Source: Sphingobium quisquiliarum P25 (GTDB lineage Bacteria > Pseudomonadota > Alphaproteobacteria > Sphingomonadales > Sphingomonadaceae). From it: 64,000 nt of DNA. Location: the NCBI RefSeq assembly GCF_000445065.1, contig NZ_ATHO01000023.1, positions 1-64,000 of the forward strand, in the 5' to 3' direction. This document shows, piece after piece, positions 35,036 through 45,020 of the stretch. A program made the position numbers and the translations under genes. The notes below the pieces were generated by a model. That model had not been told where the DNA came from. It did not search any database and saw only the letters and a list, made by a program, of their open reading frames with translations. Position 1 is the stretch's first letter, and each line of letters opens with the position of its first letter.

Positions 35036-35273
35036 AGGCTCAGGACCCATTAAATCGTTTGCGCTGGACGCAAGTGTTTGATTCAACATCAGCACCAAGG
35101 AGGTGCTGCCGATGTCCGAATTGTGGTTGTTGAGCGAGGCGCAGATGCGCCGGATTGAGCCCTATTTCCCACTGTCGCACGGCATCCCGCGGGTCGATGA
35201 TCGGCGGATCGTGAGTGGGATCATTTTCGTGATCAGGAACGGGCTGCGCTGGCGTGACGCACCGGTCGGTTAG
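35036..35273 (+). mobile_element. Truncated IS5-type insertion sequence (5' end)
   Basis: From about 35036 an AT-richer leader with GGCTCAGGACCC looks like a terminal repeat. An ATG at 35112, preceded by AAGGAGGT, opens a peptide MSELWLLSEAQMRRIEPYFP followed by DDRRIVSGIIFVIRNGLRWR, the N-terminus of IS5-family transposases. After 53 residues the frame ends in TAG at 35273 and the rest of the transposase is gone. The break joins directly onto a SIR2-like gene, whose 3' end is missing. It is a dead IS fragment and marks the right border of the sulfide island. Confidence 0.82.
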
Positions 35274-36051
35274 CCTGCCGTGATGAGAACGCTTTGCTCC
35301 CGCACGATCCGCGACTGAAATTGCCGGAAGAGATCCGCGTAGGGCGAACCGAGCGAAGAGTTCTGCTTCGCTGGCGTCGGATAGATCATCATCTGGTTCG
35401 CGGACGCTGGCGGCCAGACTTCCCTGATTGGGAAGAGGCCATGATCGTCCTCGGTCCAAGTGACCGAACCATGCAATTTGCAGAGATAGACGAAGGCGTC
35501 GACCGCTGTCCATTTGCGGCTGGCGACGTCGAGCTGCTCGGCTAAGGCGTAGCGAAAACTGGCCGGATTGAAGCGGCGTTCCACCACGCCGGAAAAGCCA
35601 TTGGCATATGGAATGCCGAGGCGGTCCATCGCCAGTTCGCTGAAATGATCGTAGTTGGTCGTGAACACCCACGGCCGGGGCAAGGACCGATCCCGCAAGA
35701 CCAGCTTCTTGTAAAACCGCTCGTAGAGGTCGCGCACGGTGGTGTCGCCATCCGTGGCAAATCTCCCCTTGGTGACACGGGTCCAGAGGAAATCCTGGAC
35801 CTTTTTGATGATGCCATCGAGCACCGCCCGATTGGGGTGAAGAGCAGCGTTCTCGCTATGGCGCAGCACGAACCGCTGCGCGAACAACACCTCCATCAAG
35901 CGTTCAAGGTTACGACTGTAATCCTTCGCTAGGTTTCCCCGCAAAACTCCTCCGCCAAAGGCGCCATCGTAGAAATGCCAAGCTCTTTGTCGTCCTTCAT
36001 CAAAGACGAGCATCCAGCGCCGAGCAGGAATGCGATGTTCTTGGCGCTCAT
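35270..36051 (-). pseudogene. Broken SIR2-like gene (frameshift and 3' truncation)
   Basis: From the ATG at 36051 the frame reads MSAKNIAFLLGAGCSSLMKD, the SIR2 nucleotide-binding start, but runs into a stop near 35935. The following SIR2 parts continue in another frame: SRNLERLMEVLFAQRF, VFTTNYDHFSELAMD (the Asn-Tyr-Asp motif) and CKLHGSVTW (the His-Gly motif). The gene then stops at REQSVLITAG, just where intact relatives continue into the last Rossmann strand. The stop codon comes from the abutting IS5 fragment. So the gene has suffered a frameshift near 35940 and lost its 3' end. A sequencing error could explain the frameshift but not the truncation. Confidence 0.8.
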
Positions 36052-36276
36052 CGCCTCCGAAATGGCCTGACGAGCGCTCTCGGCCCCCCTGTTCCAATCA
36101 AGATCTGAAGGTTCAGCGTCGCCTTTCCGCAGAAACTGGAATTTTCGCCCTTCGCACCCTCACCCATATACCCCCATCCCCAATCTTATCTGGCCACGCG
36201 ATTGGCTCGCGCGGCTATATCTGCACATCGCGCCATGAGCGCCTCGAACGGCTCTGCGTCATCGAAGAGCAGGTGA

Positions 36277-37355: not shown

Positions 37356-37388
37356 GTTCTTGAAATATTGAACAATGTACCATATATG
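37356..37388 (+). promoter_or_regulatory. Promoter with overlapping GTTC-N10-GAAC operator for the ubiquitin-like operon
   Basis: A -35 TTGAAA (37360-37365) and a -10 TATATG (37383-37388) are separated by 17 bases. The palindrome GTTC (37356-37359)-N10-GAAC (37370-37373) covers the -35 element, so a bound repressor would block polymerase. The next open frame starts at 37465 (or 37444). Confidence 0.7.
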
Positions 37389-37464
37389 TGACGCTTGCGC
37401 GGTGGGAATGAGAGACCGCGATGAGAGGAGCAAACAACAGACGATGGTGACGGAGACGAAACCC

Positions 37465-38031
37465 ATGGACGATTCCTTCAATCACGCCGACCCTATTTAC
37501 ACCTCGTGGGAGGTGGAAGACCCGCTGGGTCGCGATCGCGACACCGACCTGGTCGTCGTCACCACGCGGCGGGCTCTCTGCCGCATGGCATTTGTGGCGG
37601 CGGAGACCGCCACCCGCTTCGAACGCGATGGGATCGACCATGATCCGGTCGCCTGGATGATGACGCCGCGGCGGCTCTTCGACGGTGAGAGCGCGCTTGA
37701 TGCCTGCCTCGACCGGACAGGGTTCAAGCGGGCCGTCATCCTGCACAGCCTGTGCTTCGGCATGGATGCCATGCCGCAGCAGATCGACGACCTTATGGAC
37801 GACGATGACGATTTCGAGGAGGATGAAATTGAAAAGGCGTTTGCGCAGTCGCAGGCACCGGGGCACAACGGGCGCATGCGGATGATCGGAAAAGGACAGG
37901 TGACCCTTGCGGTGCCACACTGCCGTACATCCGTTCCCTACGCGCCGCCGCGTGAAAGCTCGCGTCGCGCGCACCGACCGAAGCTCAAGCGCCGCGCCGA
38001 AGCGTTGGGCGCCATGAAGGCGCATCCCTGA
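37465..38031 (+). CDS. Unknown acidic-tract protein, first gene of the ubiquitin-like operon
   Basis: A 188-residue protein from the ATG at 37465, which has GGAG nine bases upstream (ATGs at 37444, 37408 and 37375 are in frame but less well placed). The middle part (TPRRLFDGESALDACLDR) faintly recalls MbcA/Xre-type toxin-binding segments, but not enough for a call. Next comes a run of acidic residues (DDDDDFEEDEIEKAF), and the tail is strongly basic (RRAHRPKLKRRAE). Its stop overlaps the exonuclease start (TGATG), so the two are translated together. Function unknown. Confidence 0.6.
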   Translation: MDDSFNHADPIYTSWEVEDPLGRDRDTDLVVVTTRRALCRMAFVAAETATRFERDGIDHDPVAWMMTPRRLFDGESALDACLDRTGFKRAVILHSLCFGMDAMPQQIDDLMDDDDDFEEDEIEKAFAQSQAPGHNGRMRMIGKGQVTLAVPHCRTSVPYAPPRESSRRAHRPKLKRRAEALGAMKAHP

Positions 38032-38909
38032 TGGGCGTGGCCGCCGCTTCGGCGGCGGTCCGACCCCGCTTCGCCGGAAGCGGTAGCCGACAGCTGTATC
38101 AGCTCGAACTCACCGAGGGGCCGACCGGCCTCGGCGATCCCGACGCACCGAACATCGCGGTGGTCGTCGACGTCGAGACCACAGGCCTCGACCGGAAGCG
38201 CGACGTCATAATCGAGCTGGCCATGCGCCAGTTCCGATATGACGACGCGGGCCGAGTCACCAACATCGGCCGATCCTTCACATGGCTGCAGGATCCCAGC
38301 CGTCCGCTGACGGAGGAGATCATGAAGCTCACCGGTCTGGATGATGACATGCTCAAAGGGCAGTCGATCGACAAGGAGGTTGCGGCGCGCATCCTGCGCA
38401 GGGCCGATCTGGTGGTGGCTCACAACGCCAGCTTCGACCGGCCGCGCGTCGAGGACGAGATCCCCGAAGCCGCCGGTAGAGCCTGGGGCTGCAGCTGCGT
38501 CGAGATCGGCTGGCGCGACTTCGGCTTCGACGGTCGGAGTCTCGGCTATCTGCTGTCGCAGGCCGGGTACTTCAACGGTGCCCACCGCGCCGCGGCGGAC
38601 GTGGACAGCACGATTGCGCTCCTCGCGCACGAGGTGGCGCCGGGGCGTTCCGCAATGGCGGAGCTGGTGACCCGGTCGGCGCAGGACAGCTGGATGGTGC
38701 GTGCCGTCGGCACCGCGTACGAGCGCAAGGACGACCTGAAGGCGCGCGGCTATCGCTGGGACCCGGATGATCGGATCTGGTGCCGCGAGATAGCCGACCG
38801 TGAGGAGGAGGAGGCGTGGCTCATGCTTAACGTCTACTCCCCATGGGCGAGCCCGACGTCGGCAGCGCCCGAATGGCGCCGGATTTCGGCCCGCGAGCGC
38901 TGGGCCTGA
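38031..38909 (+). CDS. DEDDh 3'-5' exonuclease (DnaQ-like)
   Basis: A 292-residue protein. The exonuclease domain (about 40-205) has all catalytic residues: Asp47 and Glu49 in VVVDVETTGLD, Asp136 in VAHNASFDRP, and His185 with Asp190 in GAHRAAADVDS. A C-terminal module (about 228-275) with DLKARGYRWDPDDRIW is found on other stand-alone DnaQ-like proteins. It should trim single-stranded DNA or RNA ends. As second gene of the ubiquitin-like operon it may be the nucleic-acid-degrading part of a defence system. It is followed by a 143-base gap with a small CATCCC-TTCC-GGGATG hairpin (about 38957-38972). Confidence 0.88.
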   Translation: MGVAAASAAVRPRFAGSGSRQLYQLELTEGPTGLGDPDAPNIAVVVDVETTGLDRKRDVIIELAMRQFRYDDAGRVTNIGRSFTWLQDPSRPLTEEIMKLTGLDDDMLKGQSIDKEVAARILRRADLVVAHNASFDRPRVEDEIPEAAGRAWGCSCVEIGWRDFGFDGRSLGYLLSQAGYFNGAHRAAADVDSTIALLAHEVAPGRSAMAELVTRSAQDSWMVRAVGTAYERKDDLKARGYRWDPDDRIWCREIADREEEEAWLMLNVYSPWASPTSAAPEWRRISARERWA

Positions 38910-39052
38910 CTCACCTGAATGGCTGACCCACCGATCGGGCGGCACCGGTCGCGACCATCCCTTCCGGGATGCCTCGCAGAACGGGAACACTGACCCTTTT
39001 CCTGTCCGTCGGGCGCGTCCTCCGCTGCCCTTCATACGCATGGAGATTCCAC

Positions 39053-39709
39053 ATGGCTGAACACCTAGCTGACGGTCTGTTCGTCGGACCGGACAACTAT
39101 GTTCCCCGGCTCGGTACGGGCGACGACGCTTGCACGGTCGAAATCCTCCGGCGTCGGTCGGACGGCCAGATCGTGCCGGTCTGGTCCGTCGTCCTTGACG
39201 GCCCGAAAGCGGCGAGGACGCTCTACGACTGGATGATGACAAATCCCCCGAGCTGGAGCATGTGGGGTCGGCTGTCGCTGCGCGTCGGGCCGGAAGCGGC
39301 GGGTCGTCTAATCATAAGGGCGGCCGACGAGCACGAGCGCGTCCGGATCGAACAGGAGCGGCTGCGGCGCGAAAATCAGAAGGAGCAGGCGCGCCTCTCC
39401 CGGCAGATCACGCTCTATTACTACGATCCGAAGAAGAAGGCGCCGTCGCTCGGACTGGAGCGCGGCAGCGAGAATTCGCCCTTCTTCCGCATGACCTTCA
39501 CCGAGAAGTGGGAGCGCGACCGGGTTCTGGACTGGCTCACGAATCAGCGCGCGCACTTCGCCGACATGGAGGAACTGTGGGCCGAGCACGGGGCGCTGGC
39601 GCTCGAGCGGCACATCCTTGCCGGCATGCGCGAGACCGAACGCGTGGTGAAAGCGCGCGGCGACAGCGCGGGCGGCCGCCGCCCCCTGCGCTTCTGGAGG
39701 GGCGAATGA
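39053..39709 (+). CDS. Unknown protein of the ubiquitin-like operon
   Basis: A 218-residue protein from the ATG at 39053 (GGAG upstream). The N-terminal 100 residues look beta-rich (DGQIVPVWSVVLDGPKAART). Residues 85-115 form a charged coiled-coil-like helix (DEHERVRIEQERLRRENQKE), followed by a mixed domain with ITLYYYDPKKKAPS. No domain is recognised. Its stop overlaps the AAA+-like gene start. Because the next gene's product has lost its nucleotide-binding residues, this protein might be its structural partner; that is speculation. Confidence 0.65.
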   Translation: MAEHLADGLFVGPDNYVPRLGTGDDACTVEILRRRSDGQIVPVWSVVLDGPKAARTLYDWMMTNPPSWSMWGRLSLRVGPEAAGRLIIRAADEHERVRIEQERLRRENQKEQARLSRQITLYYYDPKKKAPSLGLERGSENSPFFRMTFTEKWERDRVLDWLTNQRAHFADMEELWAEHGALALERHILAGMRETERVVKARGDSAGGRRPLRFWRGE

Positions 39710-40662
39710 TGGCTGGCGGCCTTATTCCCGTGGGCGGCGGATCGAAGCTGCCTGTCGGACCGGCAACGTCCGATCCGGGCCGTGTCGGCAGGCCTTCCAT
39801 GATGCTCGCCAGGAGCTTGTCCGGCCGCCCGCTGCAGTTCGGCGCCGATATCAAGCTTCCGCTGCGGGGCGGCGATCGCCTCGGTCCGTCGGGGATCGTC
39901 TCCGATCTCGAACTCGACTGGGAGCCGGAACTCATGCGTTTCGTGGAGGACGCGTGCCTCGATCAGCGGATCCGGGGTCGCGATTGGTTCGCCTTGCCGC
40001 CGGTCCTGCTCGGCGGAGAGGCAGGGGTTGGCCGCACCCATGTCGCGCGCCGTCTGGCGAGGGCTGCTGGCGTGCCGCACATCATGTTCGACGCCACGAC
40101 GTGGATGTTCACCTGGCGCTGCGCCGGACCCGACGTTCATCTTCCGCTTCCCATCGCTGCGGCTATGGCCGCCAGCGGTTGCGCTAACCCGGTGGTCAGC
40201 GTGACAGGTGTGCCGCGCGCCACTCCCGCAATGGTCGACCTGCTGATCAGGCTGGTCGACCGCTCGATCAACGAGAGTTTTGTTGACCAAGCGGCAGGCG
40301 TGGTCGTCGACTACAGCGCAGTCACCTGGATCGTCCATGCGCCTCCGCGGCGCCCAGCGTCCGGACCGCAGGCCTACCGTCACTATCAGCAATCGGTCGA
40401 CCCCGAGCCGCACGTCCCGGCGGCGCTCGCGAGGCACCTGCATCGCATCGATCTGCAGGACGTCGCCCCAGAGCAGTACCAGCTGCTGGTCGTAGACCTG
40501 TTGGCCGAGGTCCTGGACGATCTCGGCGTCCCGCTGCCGCCTCTGATGGATCTCCAGGCGCTGTTCGACCTCGCCGGCCAGTGGCGCGATCTCAGCGTGG
40601 GCGAGATCTACGACCGGCTCCAGATCGAGGTTCGCCTCCACGTGGATGACCACCCCCTCTGA
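39706..40662 (+). CDS. AAA+-like (Lon-type) protein with degenerate Walker motifs
   Basis: A 318-residue protein with the fold order of short Lon-like AAA+ ATPases. The P-loop region is VLLGGEAGVGRTHVARRLA, where the invariant Lys is Arg110. Next comes a strand where relatives have the Walker-B Asp-Glu but this protein has CANPVVSVTGVPRAT (161-172). A segment VVVDYSAVTWIVHAPP follows, in the place of the sensor-1 Asn. A helical lid follows to the end. With Lys, the Asp-Glu pair and sensor-1 Asn all changed, ATP hydrolysis is unlikely. The start ATGATG overlaps the previous stop and has GGAGG in front. It is not a decayed gene, since the frame is intact in a tight operon, so the changes look selected. 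Confidence 0.7.
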   Translation: MMAGGLIPVGGGSKLPVGPATSDPGRVGRPSMMLARSLSGRPLQFGADIKLPLRGGDRLGPSGIVSDLELDWEPELMRFVEDACLDQRIRGRDWFALPPVLLGGEAGVGRTHVARRLARAAGVPHIMFDATTWMFTWRCAGPDVHLPLPIAAAMAASGCANPVVSVTGVPRATPAMVDLLIRLVDRSINESFVDQAAGVVVDYSAVTWIVHAPPRRPASGPQAYRHYQQSVDPEPHVPAALARHLHRIDLQDVAPEQYQLLVVDLLAEVLDDLGVPLPPLMDLQALFDLAGQWRDLSVGEIYDRLQIEVRLHVDDHPL

Positions 40663-40687: not shown

Positions 40688-41353
40688 ATGGAAGACGAAA
40701 ATCCGAAGTTGCGCATCCTGGTCGATGGCCGGGAGATCGAGCTCCCCTCGACTGAGCCGAGCGGGCGCGACGTGCTTGCCGCCTTGGGGGCCGACCCAGA
40801 CAGCCGCGACGTGCTCATTCGCGTCGATGGCGGCTGGGCCCGCCTGATGGCGCCGAGCAATCCGGTGGTCGGCCTTGACGGCGAGGCACACTTCCGCCTC
40901 CACCGCAACGCTACGCTGAGGTACCTGCGCGTCGATGACGCAGTGTGGGAGTGGGGCGCCCCCGGCATCCAGGAGCATGACATCCGCGAGATCGCCGGCA
41001 TTCCCGACGGGCGGCGCCTGTTCCAGGCCGGCGACGTCCTGCGGACGGGCGAGGTCGTCGATCTCACCGTCGACTGGGTCCCGAAGGTCGAGTCGCGTCC
41101 CGAGATGGCGGGCGCCCTGACCGTGCCCGTGGTCGTGAACGGCCGCCGCCAGAGTCTCGCCGTCCCGGAAGTGTCGTTCGAGGATCTGGTGGGCATCGCC
41201 TATCCCGACGTTCCGGCGATCTCAAACAGCATGTTCACCGTCACCTACCGTCGCGGTCCTCTCGACCGGCCGGAAGGCAGCCTCGCCCCTACGCAGCGCC
41301 TGCGGGCCGTCCATGGAGTGGTGTTCAATGTCACGGCAACTAATAAGTCTTAG
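40688..41353 (+). CDS. Multi-ubiquitin-like protein with three beta-grasp domains
   Basis: A 221-residue protein made of three consecutive beta-grasp units. Unit 1 is about 6-75 (LRILVDGREIELPSTEPSG), unit 2 about 76-140 (RYLRVDDAVWEWGAPGIQEH) and unit 3 about 145-221 (VVVNGRRQSLAVPEVSFEDL). Unit 3 has the multiubiquitin signature MFTVTYRRGP, followed by a VVFNVTATNKS end. Bacterial multiubiquitin proteins are partners of E1/E2-like enzymes in conjugation-type defence operons. The tail ends in Asn-Lys-Ser rather than Gly-Gly, so a conjugation-competent end would need trimming, or it acts without conjugation. AAGGAGAAGAAG lies upstream. It overlaps the E1-like gene by 26 bases. Confidence 0.82.
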   Translation: MEDENPKLRILVDGREIELPSTEPSGRDVLAALGADPDSRDVLIRVDGGWARLMAPSNPVVGLDGEAHFRLHRNATLRYLRVDDAVWEWGAPGIQEHDIREIAGIPDGRRLFQAGDVLRTGEVVDLTVDWVPKVESRPEMAGALTVPVVVNGRRQSLAVPEVSFEDLVGIAYPDVPAISNSMFTVTYRRGPLDRPEGSLAPTQRLRAVHGVVFNVTATNKS

Positions 41354-42521
41354 TCCGGACCTGCAGCGACTGGTCGACGAAGGCTACGACGTGTCGATCG
41401 AGGGAGGATATCTCATCCTGCGGGATGTCCCCTATCTCGATGCGCGTCGGCGCGTGTGTCGCGGTGCGCTTGTCAGCGGGCTCGACCTCGCCGGCGACCG
41501 CACTGTGCCGCCGCGCGACCACACGGCCTATCTTGCCGGTTCCATGCCGCACACCGCCGACGGTCGCCCGCTCAGCCGGATGGCCCATGCTCGGTTTCGC
41601 CGTGACCTCGGCCACGGCATCGTTGTCGAACACATGCTCTGCAGCAGGCCCTTCGACGGCGAATTCCCGGACTTCCACGCCAAGATGGTGACCTTCGTCG
41701 AGCAGCTCTCCGCCCATGCGAAGATGTTGGAGCCAAACGTCACCGCTCGCACCGGACAGGTCATGCTGCCGGAACGGGAGCGTTCTTGTTTCGCATATCT
41801 CGACACCGGTAGCGCCCGCCACGGGATTGGGGCCTTCACGTCCCGGCTGGAGGGGCTGAGCGTCGCCATCGTCGGCCTGGGCGGCACCGGCTCCTATATC
41901 CTCGACCAGATCGCCAAGTGCCCGGTCGCGCGCATCCATCTGTTCGACGACGACCGCTTCGACCAGCACAACGCGTTCCGTTCGCCCGGCGCGCCGTCCC
42001 TCGACGACCTGCGCGCGCGTCTCACCAAGGTCGGCCACCTGGCCAGCATCTACTCGCGAATGCACACTGGCATCATCGGGCATGAGGCGAAGCTGGGTCC
42101 GAACAACGCCCATCTGCTCGATCATGCCGACTTCGTGTTCGTCGCGATCGACGTCGGCGTCTCCCGCCGGATCATCGTCGAGCAGATCGAACGCCGCGGA
42201 CTGCCCTTCATCGACACGGGCGTCGGTCTGGAGGCCACGGACAAAGGCCTGACCGGCGCGGTCCGCGTGACCACCAGCACGGAGCACATGCGCGAGCACG
42301 TTCGCGATTCAGCCCGCATCCCGATGGCGGCGGCCGGTGAGCACATCTACGGTTCCACCGCGCAGGTGAGCGACATGAACATGCTGGCGGCCGCGCTCGC
42401 CGTGATCCGCTTCAAGAAGCATTTCGGCTTCTATCTTGATCTGGAGCGGGAGCACCATTCGGTCTTCCAGATGGACGGCGCACAGCTGATAAACGACGAT
42501 CGTCCGGGGGGAGGGCTATGA
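41328..42521 (+). CDS. E1-like ThiF-family adenylyltransferase with N-terminal DUF6791-type domain
   Basis: A 397-residue protein. Residues 1-170 form an N-terminal domain of the kind fused to E1 enzymes in multiubiquitin operons (GYLILRDVPYLDARRRVCRG; cysteines at 44, 105, 154). The E1/ThiF Rossmann domain covers 175-365. Its ATP-binding loop is VAIVGLGGTGSYILDQIAK (GLGGTGS, 183-189), followed by HLFDDDRFDQHNAFRS, the acidic/Arg pair that binds ATP and magnesium. The last Cys is 198; no Cys lies in the later loop where E1 enzymes form the thioester, so it may only adenylate. The start at 41328 lies inside the end of the ubiquitin-like gene, so expression is coupled. No JAB-type deubiquitinase gene follows. 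Confidence 0.82.
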   Translation: MSRQLISLSPDLQRLVDEGYDVSIEGGYLILRDVPYLDARRRVCRGALVSGLDLAGDRTVPPRDHTAYLAGSMPHTADGRPLSRMAHARFRRDLGHGIVVEHMLCSRPFDGEFPDFHAKMVTFVEQLSAHAKMLEPNVTARTGQVMLPERERSCFAYLDTGSARHGIGAFTSRLEGLSVAIVGLGGTGSYILDQIAKCPVARIHLFDDDRFDQHNAFRSPGAPSLDDLRARLTKVGHLASIYSRMHTGIIGHEAKLGPNNAHLLDHADFVFVAIDVGVSRRIIVEQIERRGLPFIDTGVGLEATDKGLTGAVRVTTSTEHMREHVRDSARIPMAAAGEHIYGSTAQVSDMNMLAAALAVIRFKKHFGFYLDLEREHHSVFQMDGAQLINDDRPGGGL

Positions 42522-43156
42522 AGGAAAGGGCTGCGCCGCGCACCGCTATCGGCGAATCGACCCGGTTGGAACTGGCGACTCTGGCACTGGAGGTGCGTGC
42601 GCGTCGGGTTCAGATCTACCGCAACCATCTGGCCCGCTCGATCCGGCTGGCGTCGCCGCTGCTGATCGACGCCTGCACGTCGCAGGAGCTGGACGAGGCG
42701 ACATGGCGGGTGAAGCCCAGTCGCCACTGGCCGCAGGGACCGGACGGCCGGATCGCAGTGCGCGGCTGGTCCGCCGTGAGCCGTCGCGACGATCGCACGC
42801 GCGTGAGCGCAGTCAACCGCATGACCGGCGAACGGTTCGAGGTGCTCGAGAAGCTCGTCCTGCGGATGGGCAGCAACACGGCCCACATGATTCTTAGCGT
42901 CGGCTCGCTCTCGATAGTGACGAGGCTGCGGGGCGGCATCCTCTCGCTGCCCCGGGTGCTCGCCGACGCCGAGCGGGCGGACCTCGTCGGGGCGACGCTC
43001 GATCGAGCCGTCGAGCATCCAATCCTCGTCGGGCGCCCCTATCCGATCGTGGAGGTGCCGCGGCCCCGCTCCGCCCGCATGACCCTGATCAGGTTCGAAG
43101 CGGCGCCAGTCGAGTGGCGGGTGCCGTGGGCGCGCCCGTGGGAGGTGCCGTATTGA
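42518..43156 (+). CDS. Unknown protein downstream of the E1-like gene
   Basis: A 212-residue, Arg-rich protein overlapping the E1-like stop by four bases (ATGA). It has an N-terminal helical segment (ELATLALEVRARRVQIYRNH) and a beta-rich body (ERFEVLEKLVLRMGSNTAHM). A single Cys (DACTSQE) is present. The position is where other multiubiquitin operons carry a JAB protease or DUF6527 protein, but no JAMM motif (HxHPxxxxxxxxxD) or zinc-cysteine cluster is visible. It ends 12 bases before the end of the convergent SIR2 gene. Confidence 0.6.
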   Translation: MKERAAPRTAIGESTRLELATLALEVRARRVQIYRNHLARSIRLASPLLIDACTSQELDEATWRVKPSRHWPQGPDGRIAVRGWSAVSRRDDRTRVSAVNRMTGERFEVLEKLVLRMGSNTAHMILSVGSLSIVTRLRGGILSLPRVLADAERADLVGATLDRAVEHPILVGRPYPIVEVPRPRSARMTLIRFEAAPVEWRVPWARPWEVPY

Positions 43157-43168
43157 CCGCGGTCATCG

Positions 43169-44920
43169 TCACCACCACCCCATGCGCCGGCTCAACTGGT
43201 TGAACGCGTTCAAGCATCCGGCCCAGTGCTCGGTCGATCCGCGGCAGAAGCCGGCACTGAGGATCAGCGGCTGGATGTCCGGTGCTTGGAGCCTCTCCAC
43301 GATGGCGGCGCGGGCGTCGACGTTCCAACCTGTCTGGCCACACGGCATCCAGATGGGGCCGTCCAAATTGGAGAGATAGTCTGCTTCAGATCCGGTCAGA
43401 TTGGCGAAGCCGCCGAGAACCTCAAGCGTATGGAAGTTGTCGACTGCCTCGCCGCCGATCAGCCCGAAGTCGCGCGACCAGGGAACAATCGCATCGATCA
43501 TGTGGTCCGCCCACGCCGTCTTGCGCCGGTCCAGACCAGGCCATCGCTTCCACCAGTCCGTCTCGACCCCATCCCAGAAGGAAAGGAAGATCGAACTCAC
43601 GGCCTGCGAAGTCTGTCGGTGTCGACGGGTCAATGGCATCGTGAACCACCGGAACAGGTCCTTCCAGCGCTCAGCCCTGGTCATGCCGAGGGCATAGGTG
43701 TGATAGAGCAGATAGGCTGGATAGTTCGCAATGCCGATGAGACCCTGATTGCCGTTGTCGGGCTGGCTCCCGACGATCGCCTTCAACGCGCTGCGCACGT
43801 GCTCGAACTCGCTCCCATCACCCCATCGCCCCGCAATGCCGCCCATCCGGGCAAGGGGTTCGCTAACGCCCTCAAGCGCCTGCCATCTTTCGATGAGCAC
43901 CTCGTTCGTGACGCTGGAGTGCTGGACGGGAAACTCCTCGCCCCCGATCCGCCTGATCACCCGCTCCGCCTCGTTCGCGAACGCATCGGCGAGTTCGATC
44001 CTCCGCTCGGGGGAGGCGAGGTTCCGCTTCGTGGCGGCGATCAGCATCTCGATTGTCTCGGGCGCTGGCCGCCGGGCCTTCTCCAGAACCTCCACCCCAT
44101 CGGCCAACTGGACGAAGAAGCTGTCGGCGTCGGAGATCGGAATGACCGTCGCGGCGCGGGCGGATATCAGATCACCGGCGGCGGCGGACGGTCCGCCCCG
44201 TGATGCCCACCATGTCGGATAGCGTCGGTTCGGCGCACGCGTCAGCGCTGACCGCAGCGCCGGATCCCAATCACCGGACCACCCCGATACGATCAATCCA
44301 TATTCGTCGAGGATGCGATCTAGCAGAGCGTCGTACTCACTGGGGTAGGTGGCCAGTTCGTCCTCGGTATTGAGGATGCGGTTGTCCAGATAGTCGCCGT
44401 GGATCTTGAGCAGATAGCAGCGGCTGTGGGGAAGCGGGCTTGCGCCAGCGAGATCGTCCACCGACTTGATGACACTCGGCTCGACGCCCACCATGCTCAG
44501 CGCTGTCTCCAGCAATCTGTCGAAATTTGTCGTGATCACGACCTTGATGAAACCCGCCTGCACCATGCGGGCAATCGCATGGTGCGCCGGCGTCGGGATG
44601 CGTCGCCCGGCCTCCAGATCGTCGGGCGACGGCTCGATGTAATGGTGTAGGATCGACCGGCGCTCCGTCGGCGTGGCCGACAGCGCGTCGAGCAGCGAAG
44701 AATAGCCGGGCTCGCCGCCGAACCTCGCCACGTGCCATGCTGCCCAGTCGGACTCATCCGTCACACCCTCTGCGGCTGCAACCCGCCGGACGAGATCGAG
44801 GGTGATGTCCCACCCCGTCGGTATCTCTGCCGCGCGGGATATGCCTGATCCGAGGAGGAGCGCGTAGACGCCAGGATTTTCGACGACGGAAAATGCGAGG
44901 CGGGTATTCGGGTCGATCAA
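43169..44920 (-). CDS. SIR2-domain protein, probable NAD-depleting defence effector
   Basis: A 583-residue protein. The SIR2 domain (about 10-270) has ALLLGSGISRAAEIPTGWD, VITTNFDRLLETAL (Asn in the catalytic TNFD) and LLKIHGDYLD (His-Gly), as in Thoeris- and dSir2-type NADases. The remaining 300 residues are helical with many Trp/Phe and no recognised domain; they likely form the sensor or oligomerisation part. I start at TTG 44920 because GGAG lies eight bases upstream and relatives begin with this DPNTRLAFSV segment; the longer frame from 45010 adds a low-complexity Pro/Arg stretch. It converges on the ubiquitin-like operon, so the two could form one system or be neighbours on the same mobile element. 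Confidence 0.82.
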   Translation of the reverse strand: MIDPNTRLAFSVVENPGVYALLLGSGISRAAEIPTGWDITLDLVRRVAAAEGVTDESDWAAWHVARFGGEPGYSSLLDALSATPTERRSILHHYIEPSPDDLEAGRRIPTPAHHAIARMVQAGFIKVVITTNFDRLLETALSMVGVEPSVIKSVDDLAGASPLPHSRCYLLKIHGDYLDNRILNTEDELATYPSEYDALLDRILDEYGLIVSGWSGDWDPALRSALTRAPNRRYPTWWASRGGPSAAAGDLISARAATVIPISDADSFFVQLADGVEVLEKARRPAPETIEMLIAATKRNLASPERRIELADAFANEAERVIRRIGGEEFPVQHSSVTNEVLIERWQALEGVSEPLARMGGIAGRWGDGSEFEHVRSALKAIVGSQPDNGNQGLIGIANYPAYLLYHTYALGMTRAERWKDLFRWFTMPLTRRHRQTSQAVSSIFLSFWDGVETDWWKRWPGLDRRKTAWADHMIDAIVPWSRDFGLIGGEAVDNFHTLEVLGGFANLTGSEADYLSNLDGPIWMPCGQTGWNVDARAAIVERLQAPDIQPLILSAGFCRGSTEHWAGCLNAFNQLSRRMGWW

Positions 44921-45020
44921 CGGCTGTCTCCAGGGCGGGCGACGTCGTTGTAGCGGGCGCAGTCGGCTAGGCAATATGGGCGGGGCAGGACCCCAATATT
45001 GCTTTTTCAATGCACCAGCG

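Follow-up and report, generated by a model that had tools for sequence, protein, structure and literature searches.

Bub operons are putative immune pathways, with protection against phage not yet demonstrated (PMC13373217). The canonical operons of this Bub/multiubiquitin (PF14452) type that were examined on plasmids read Multi_ubiq, ThiF and DUF6527 and contain no AAA gene. Among AAA+ proteins, LonC (MtaLonC, TTC1975) is a member of the Lon family whose AAA module has a degenerate Walker B motif, degenerate sensors and a degenerate Arg finger. It has no ATPase activity, and despite this degeneracy it still binds six nucleotides per hexamer (PMC3391209).

We analyzed a window of 64,000 nucleotides from Sphingobium quisquiliarum P25, the whole stretch of DNA under study. 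The window contains a multiubiquitin gene followed by a DUF6791-ThiF (PRK06153) gene, as do the Bub/multiubiquitin operons, but it differs from them in having two extra genes upstream, P0002 and a pseudo-AAA gene (P0001). Furthermore, the gene after the E1 encodes DUF6527 in the canonical operons, whereas here it is P0005, which does not belong to DUF6527. An initial annotation had described P0001 as a maintained, Lon-like AAA+ pseudoenzyme inside a ubiquitin-like operon. The features of the operon are as follows (window coordinates).

37375..38031, plus strand: P0007, conserved in the Novosphingobium rosa and Sphingomonas MAG operons; a variable component
38031..38909, plus strand: P0006, DEDDh 3'-5' exonuclease whose catalytic residues are intact in the window; a variable component
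38969..39709, plus strand: P0002 (246 aa), an alpha/beta plus long helix protein, with a homologue directly upstream of the pseudo-AAA gene in 13/13 loci
39706..40662, plus strand: P0001, pseudo-AAA+ protein, a Lon-type AAA+ module that lacks both the N-domain and the protease domain of Lon
40015..40041, plus strand: former Walker A motif of P0001, G104-H112 (GEAGVGRTH), with GRTH strictly conserved in 11/13 loci
40688..41353, plus strand: P0003, multiubiquitin with two PF14452 Ubl domains (2.4e-17); the start is possibly ATG 40646
41313..42521, plus strand: P0004, DUF6791 domain plus ThiF E1 (PRK06153), the E1 part co-linear with BubCD structures
42518..43156, plus strand: P0005 (212 aa), occupying the DUF6527 place of the canonical operons

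Organization of the operon

The reading frame of P0001 was open as had been claimed, running from an ATG start to a TGA stop and encoding 318 aa. It had also been stated that the frame overlaps its neighbors, which held on the upstream side, where the P0001 start sits inside the P0002 stop (ATGA, 39706-39709). The downstream overlap with the Ubl gene is doubtful, because it exists only if P0003 starts at ATG 40646; with the alternative start, ATG 40688, the two genes are separated by a gap of about 25 nt. From the sequence, ATG 40688 looks the better start, since it is preceded by a GAAGGAG site and gives a better fit to the N. rosa homologue. Scanning for promoters and terminators gave nothing beyond chance level.

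The Multi_ubiq (PF14452) and E1 genes adjoin P0001, and equivalent operons share this arrangement, so the placement of P0001 in a ubiquitin-like operon was upheld. P0002-like, pseudo-AAA, Multi_ubiq and E1 genes occurred in this order in 13/13 loci, and the overlap between the P0002 stop and the pseudo-AAA start was 1 or 4 nt at the 13 loci. The Ubl of P0003 aligned with the solved multi-ubiquitin protein 9cd2. Both ThiF and DUF6791 were detected in P0004; its E1 part was co-linear with Citrobacter BubCD, and its DUF6791 had no structural match. Neither P0002 nor P0005 had a match on plasmids, in Pfam, in PHROGs or among PDB sequences, and searches of P0001 and P0002 against PADLOC defence components gave no match up to E 1. 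In the structural search with P0002, the best matches (to a PH-like part, Z 6.6) were within noise, and no recognizable family or fold was found. P0005 was also considered as a hidden DUF6527 protein and rejected, with no Pfam match and an hhalign probability of 1.4%; the L039 control did match DUF6527.

The operons were divided into two subfamilies. Subfamily A (the window, N. rosa, Sphingobium naphthae and L097) additionally has the exonuclease, a two-domain Ubl, an E1 with DUF6791, and P0005. In subfamily B (L089, L098, L099 and L101-L104), the Ubl is single and the E1 lacks DUF6791, in contrast to the Bub/multiubiquitin operons; no DUF6791 match was found in the subfamily B flanks that were read. 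In two diverged loci, L124 and L125, the Ubl is likewise single and the N-terminal part of the E1 is DUF6791-like. The identity of the DUF6791 plus ThiF protein was 63-68% within subfamily A and 44-50% to the plasmid-borne canonical operons.

Several further observations were made on these loci. The DEDDh exonuclease is intact in the window and in L097, and its DxE, second and third motifs are lost in N. rosa and S. naphthae (L096:7060-7806 and L100:370-1110); judged by these motifs, the degenerate exonuclease is a second predicted pseudoenzyme in the same operon type. Near one subfamily B operon, the opposite strand carries two more P0005-like genes (L099:3929-5134 and L099:13226-13900, both minus strand). 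In one Sphingomonas MAG (JAFKLZ01), the subfamily B operon is present twice, in divergent versions (L098:8986-9867 and L103:8926-9807). In the window, the operon is flanked by SIR2-type defence-like genes, namely a seemingly truncated SIR2 gene upstream (35270-36097, minus strand) and a PDC-S65 candidate downstream (43169-45010, minus strand). The flank of the island on the cytochrome bd side showed an 86% match to relatives.

Orthologues and selection

Single-sequence searches with P0001 against GTDB contigs, IMG/VR and plasmids detected no close relative. The orthologues emerged from a search for Multi_ubiq across the order Sphingomonadales, followed by reading of the flanks and an alignment-based search. 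In the flanks of the Multi_ubiq matches, two operons carried a P0001 homologue, L077 (N. rosa) and L089. Nine loci on GTDB contigs, all in Sphingomonadales, were then found with an alignment of these two homologues; one of the nine was the N. rosa locus again, and L124 and L125 were found in addition. The total was thus 13 loci including the window, or 12 beyond it, all in Sphingomonadales. No pseudo-AAA member was found on viral contigs. Members outside Sphingomonadales, or motif-intact members in such operons, may have been missed. Because L103 is a near-copy of L101, 12 members were used for counts.

The 12 pseudo-AAA members formed a single clade with 100/100 support, which was present in 100% of the bootstrap trees, and they are therefore of common descent. 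Orthologue pairs showed dN/dS values of about 0.11-0.35 inside each subfamily (with the near-copies L101/L103 set aside), indicating purifying selection; pairs with L098, the outlying member of subfamily B, gave 0.39-0.51, with dS near saturation. The view of P0001 as a maintained gene accords with these values, with the open frames in 13 loci and with the losses shared among them. A pseudogene in decay or an assembly artefact would be hardly credible: several catalytic motifs are gone at once, as decay or artefact would predict, but the frames are open, the losses are shared, dN/dS is low and the gene order is conserved. Decay and assembly error were ruled out by the orthologues on this basis.

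Fold of P0001 and loss of the ATPase motifs

P0001 alone matched Pfam AAA families below threshold only. A profile made from ten members of the pseudo-AAA family (profile A3) matched LONP1 and bacterial Lon along about 150-195 positions, with E values from 6e-11 to 4e-8. The AlphaFold model of P0001 (mean pLDDT 76.9, pTM 0.75) matched the LONP1 AAA+ module with a Z of 19.0 and an rmsd of 4.1 over 253 residues, at an identity of about 17%. By sequence, the nearest proteins were stand-alone Lon-like AAA proteins, mostly of Alphaproteobacteria. Based on the profile, the model match and these relatives, P0001 is a Lon-type AAA+ module, as had been proposed. Its fold and alignment agree with those of LonA (human LONP1 and E. 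coli Lon) throughout both the alpha/beta and the alpha subdomain of the AAA+ module; unlike LonA, P0001 ends past the alpha subdomain and lacks the N-domain, the Ser-Lys protease domain and the catalytic ATPase residues.

The stand-alone Lon-like AAA ATPases of Alphaproteobacteria (for example WP_162630048.1, which is L038; L010; L126) were about 26-36% identical to P0001 over the AAA core. In contrast to P0001, these proteins keep the Walker A Lys and nearly always the Walker B Asp-Glu, the sensor-1 Asn, the Arg finger and the sensor-2 Arg, and most have a long N-terminal part. In the wide flanks that were read (L038 and L126-L129), none of the 13 Lys-keeping relatives was next to Multi_ubiq/E1.

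The initial annotation had called all three ATP-handling motifs of P0001 altered. The strings GEAGVGRT with Arg110 (G104-T111), VVSVTGVP (163-170) and WIVHAPP (208-214) were present, and relatives that keep the motifs read G..GVGKT, V[VI]DEIDK and W[IL]LTAN at these places. In the alignment, Arg110 corresponds to the Walker A Lys, T167/G168 to the Walker B Asp/Glu, and P213 to the sensor-1 Asn, and the degenerate columns fell in the same register when the family profile was compared with Lon. Neither a replacement Lys nor a replacement Asp-Glu was detected in register. A fourth loss, beyond those annotated, was the sensor-2 Arg (SVR or GVR in relatives, SVG in P0001). Furthermore, P0001 carries an extra insert of 18-19 residues after sensor 1 (about 215-233).

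Motifs were tabulated for the 12 pseudo-AAA members, 13 relatives and two Lon rows. The Lon rows L111 and L121 were left out of the tree and the final motif table. Where sensor-1 states lay outside the aligned columns, they were taken from the sequences by visual inspection. The Walker A Lys, Walker B Asp-Glu, sensor-1 Asn and sensor-2 Arg were absent in 12/12 pseudo-AAA members. Because these 12 non-identical loci have all four losses, the losses go beyond chance or assembly error. The Lys position is occupied by Arg in 11/12 members, and only 3/12 retain the Arg finger, which is an interface residue. The most diverged member, L125, has no P-loop (GATVDEARF, with the glycine pattern lost), and another diverged member reads GRGH in this place. 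Outside the clade, the Lys was retained in 13/13 relatives, and the canonical Walker B pair was kept by all 13 except L038 and L011 (D to E in L011). L038 (L038:5491-6777, on an Azospirillum ramasamyi plasmid) keeps the Walker A Lys and the Walker B Asp, but its Walker B Glu is replaced by Gly and its sensor-1 Asn by Arg; it is a half-degenerate stand-alone AAA outside any Ubl operon.

The best conserved stretches of the pseudo-AAA family were LRGGDRLGPSGI (53-64) and GVGRTHVARRLA (107-118), so that the former P-loop (GxGRTH) ranks second. The P-loop stretch 104-115 contained 7 of 36 invariant residues (p = 7e-5), and the Walker B stretch contained none. This pattern of conservation fits a binding site kept without hydrolysis. 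Since L125 has lost the P-loop glycine pattern, a conserved ligand pocket would not be universal in the family.

Discussion

The loss of four ATPase elements with retention of fold and selection supports the reading of P0001 as a pseudoenzyme, and the shared losses, the selection and the constant gene order bear out the earlier description of it as maintained inside a ubiquitin-like operon. We consider it about an even chance (roughly 0.5) that P0001 is a catalytically dead pseudo-AAA+ protein, recruited once, that serves together with P0002 as a non-hydrolyzing adaptor or sensor in a Bub/multiubiquitin conjugation operon. An ATP-using Lon-type AAA+ module without protease domain would have been recruited once, within Sphingomonadales, into a multiubiquitin/Bub-type operon, and would have lost the Walker A Lys, Walker B Asp-Glu, sensor-1 Asn and sensor-2 Arg inside that operon. 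P0001 would then be unable to hydrolyze ATP and would act by binding and not as a motor. P0001 and P0002 may together form an adaptor or recognition arm, which would either bring a target to the E1/E2 protein charged with Ubl or gate that protein. An anion or nucleotide may remain bound in the former P-loop as a static ligand. An adaptor or sensor is the most likely role because P0002 is constant and translationally coupled to P0001 and because the Ubl and E1 genes adjoin it. Judged from gene order and coupling, P0001 is probably a structural or ligand-sensing partner in the tagging system.

A non-hydrolyzing nucleotide or anion switch is conceivable but rather unlikely; here ATP, ADP or some other phosphate ligand would still occupy the Arg P-loop, and the liganded state would govern how P0001 assembles with P0002 or the E1. 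The invariance of GxGRTH in A3 and the enrichment of the P-loop for invariant residues are consistent with such a switch, as is the precedent of LonC, a degenerate Lon AAA without ATPase activity that still binds nucleotide (PMC3391209). However, LonC retains its protease domain and its Walker A Lys (GPPSLGKHE), where P0001 has Arg, and it is tied to no ubiquitin-like operon in PMC3391209. The pseudo-AAA proteins have lost Walker B and both sensors, and the two diverged members depart further still at the P-loop. Alternatively, P0001 might mimic a host AAA+ protein attacked by phages, so that its modification by a phage would trigger the conjugation system. Dead copies of targets act as decoys in other immune systems, and the two SIR2-type genes flanking the operon provide defence-like surroundings; but no phage factor is known, and P0001 is only remotely similar to Lon, whereas a decoy is expected to be close to its model, which makes a decoy or guard role improbable.

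The initial annotation had suggested that P0001 acts as a scaffold or as a competitor of active Lon-like ATPases. A scaffold-type role is plausible, but the competitor part was not supported. In a genome that has Lon, a Lon-type AAA+ module could be imagined to join hexamers of Lon or Lon-like proteins as a poison subunit and so block them. A profile search of this genome at E <= 1e-8, however, returned only P0001 and the housekeeping Lon, with no other motif-intact close relative. The lack of the Lon N-domain and protease domain, the scarcity of the Arg finger in the clade and the low identity to LONP1 likewise argue against insertion, and competition gives no reason for the linkage to E1 and Ubl genes. 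We therefore regard a competitor as very improbable.

To our knowledge, the way in which ubiquitin-like pathways of bacteria select their targets is an open question. We suggest, tentatively and at less than even odds, that these operons represent an undescribed branch of Ubl conjugation in which a fixed Arg-P-loop pseudo-AAA+ protein and P0002 form the substrate-recognition or ligand-sensing arm. As far as could be checked, a recognition or sensing function has been assigned to no AAA+ protein in such operons. The clade-wide loss of ATPase residues tied to recruitment into the operon would point to a specific non-catalytic partner, for which P0002 is the candidate, and the pseudo-AAA clade would be a clear natural example of an AAA+ motor that has become a binding module.
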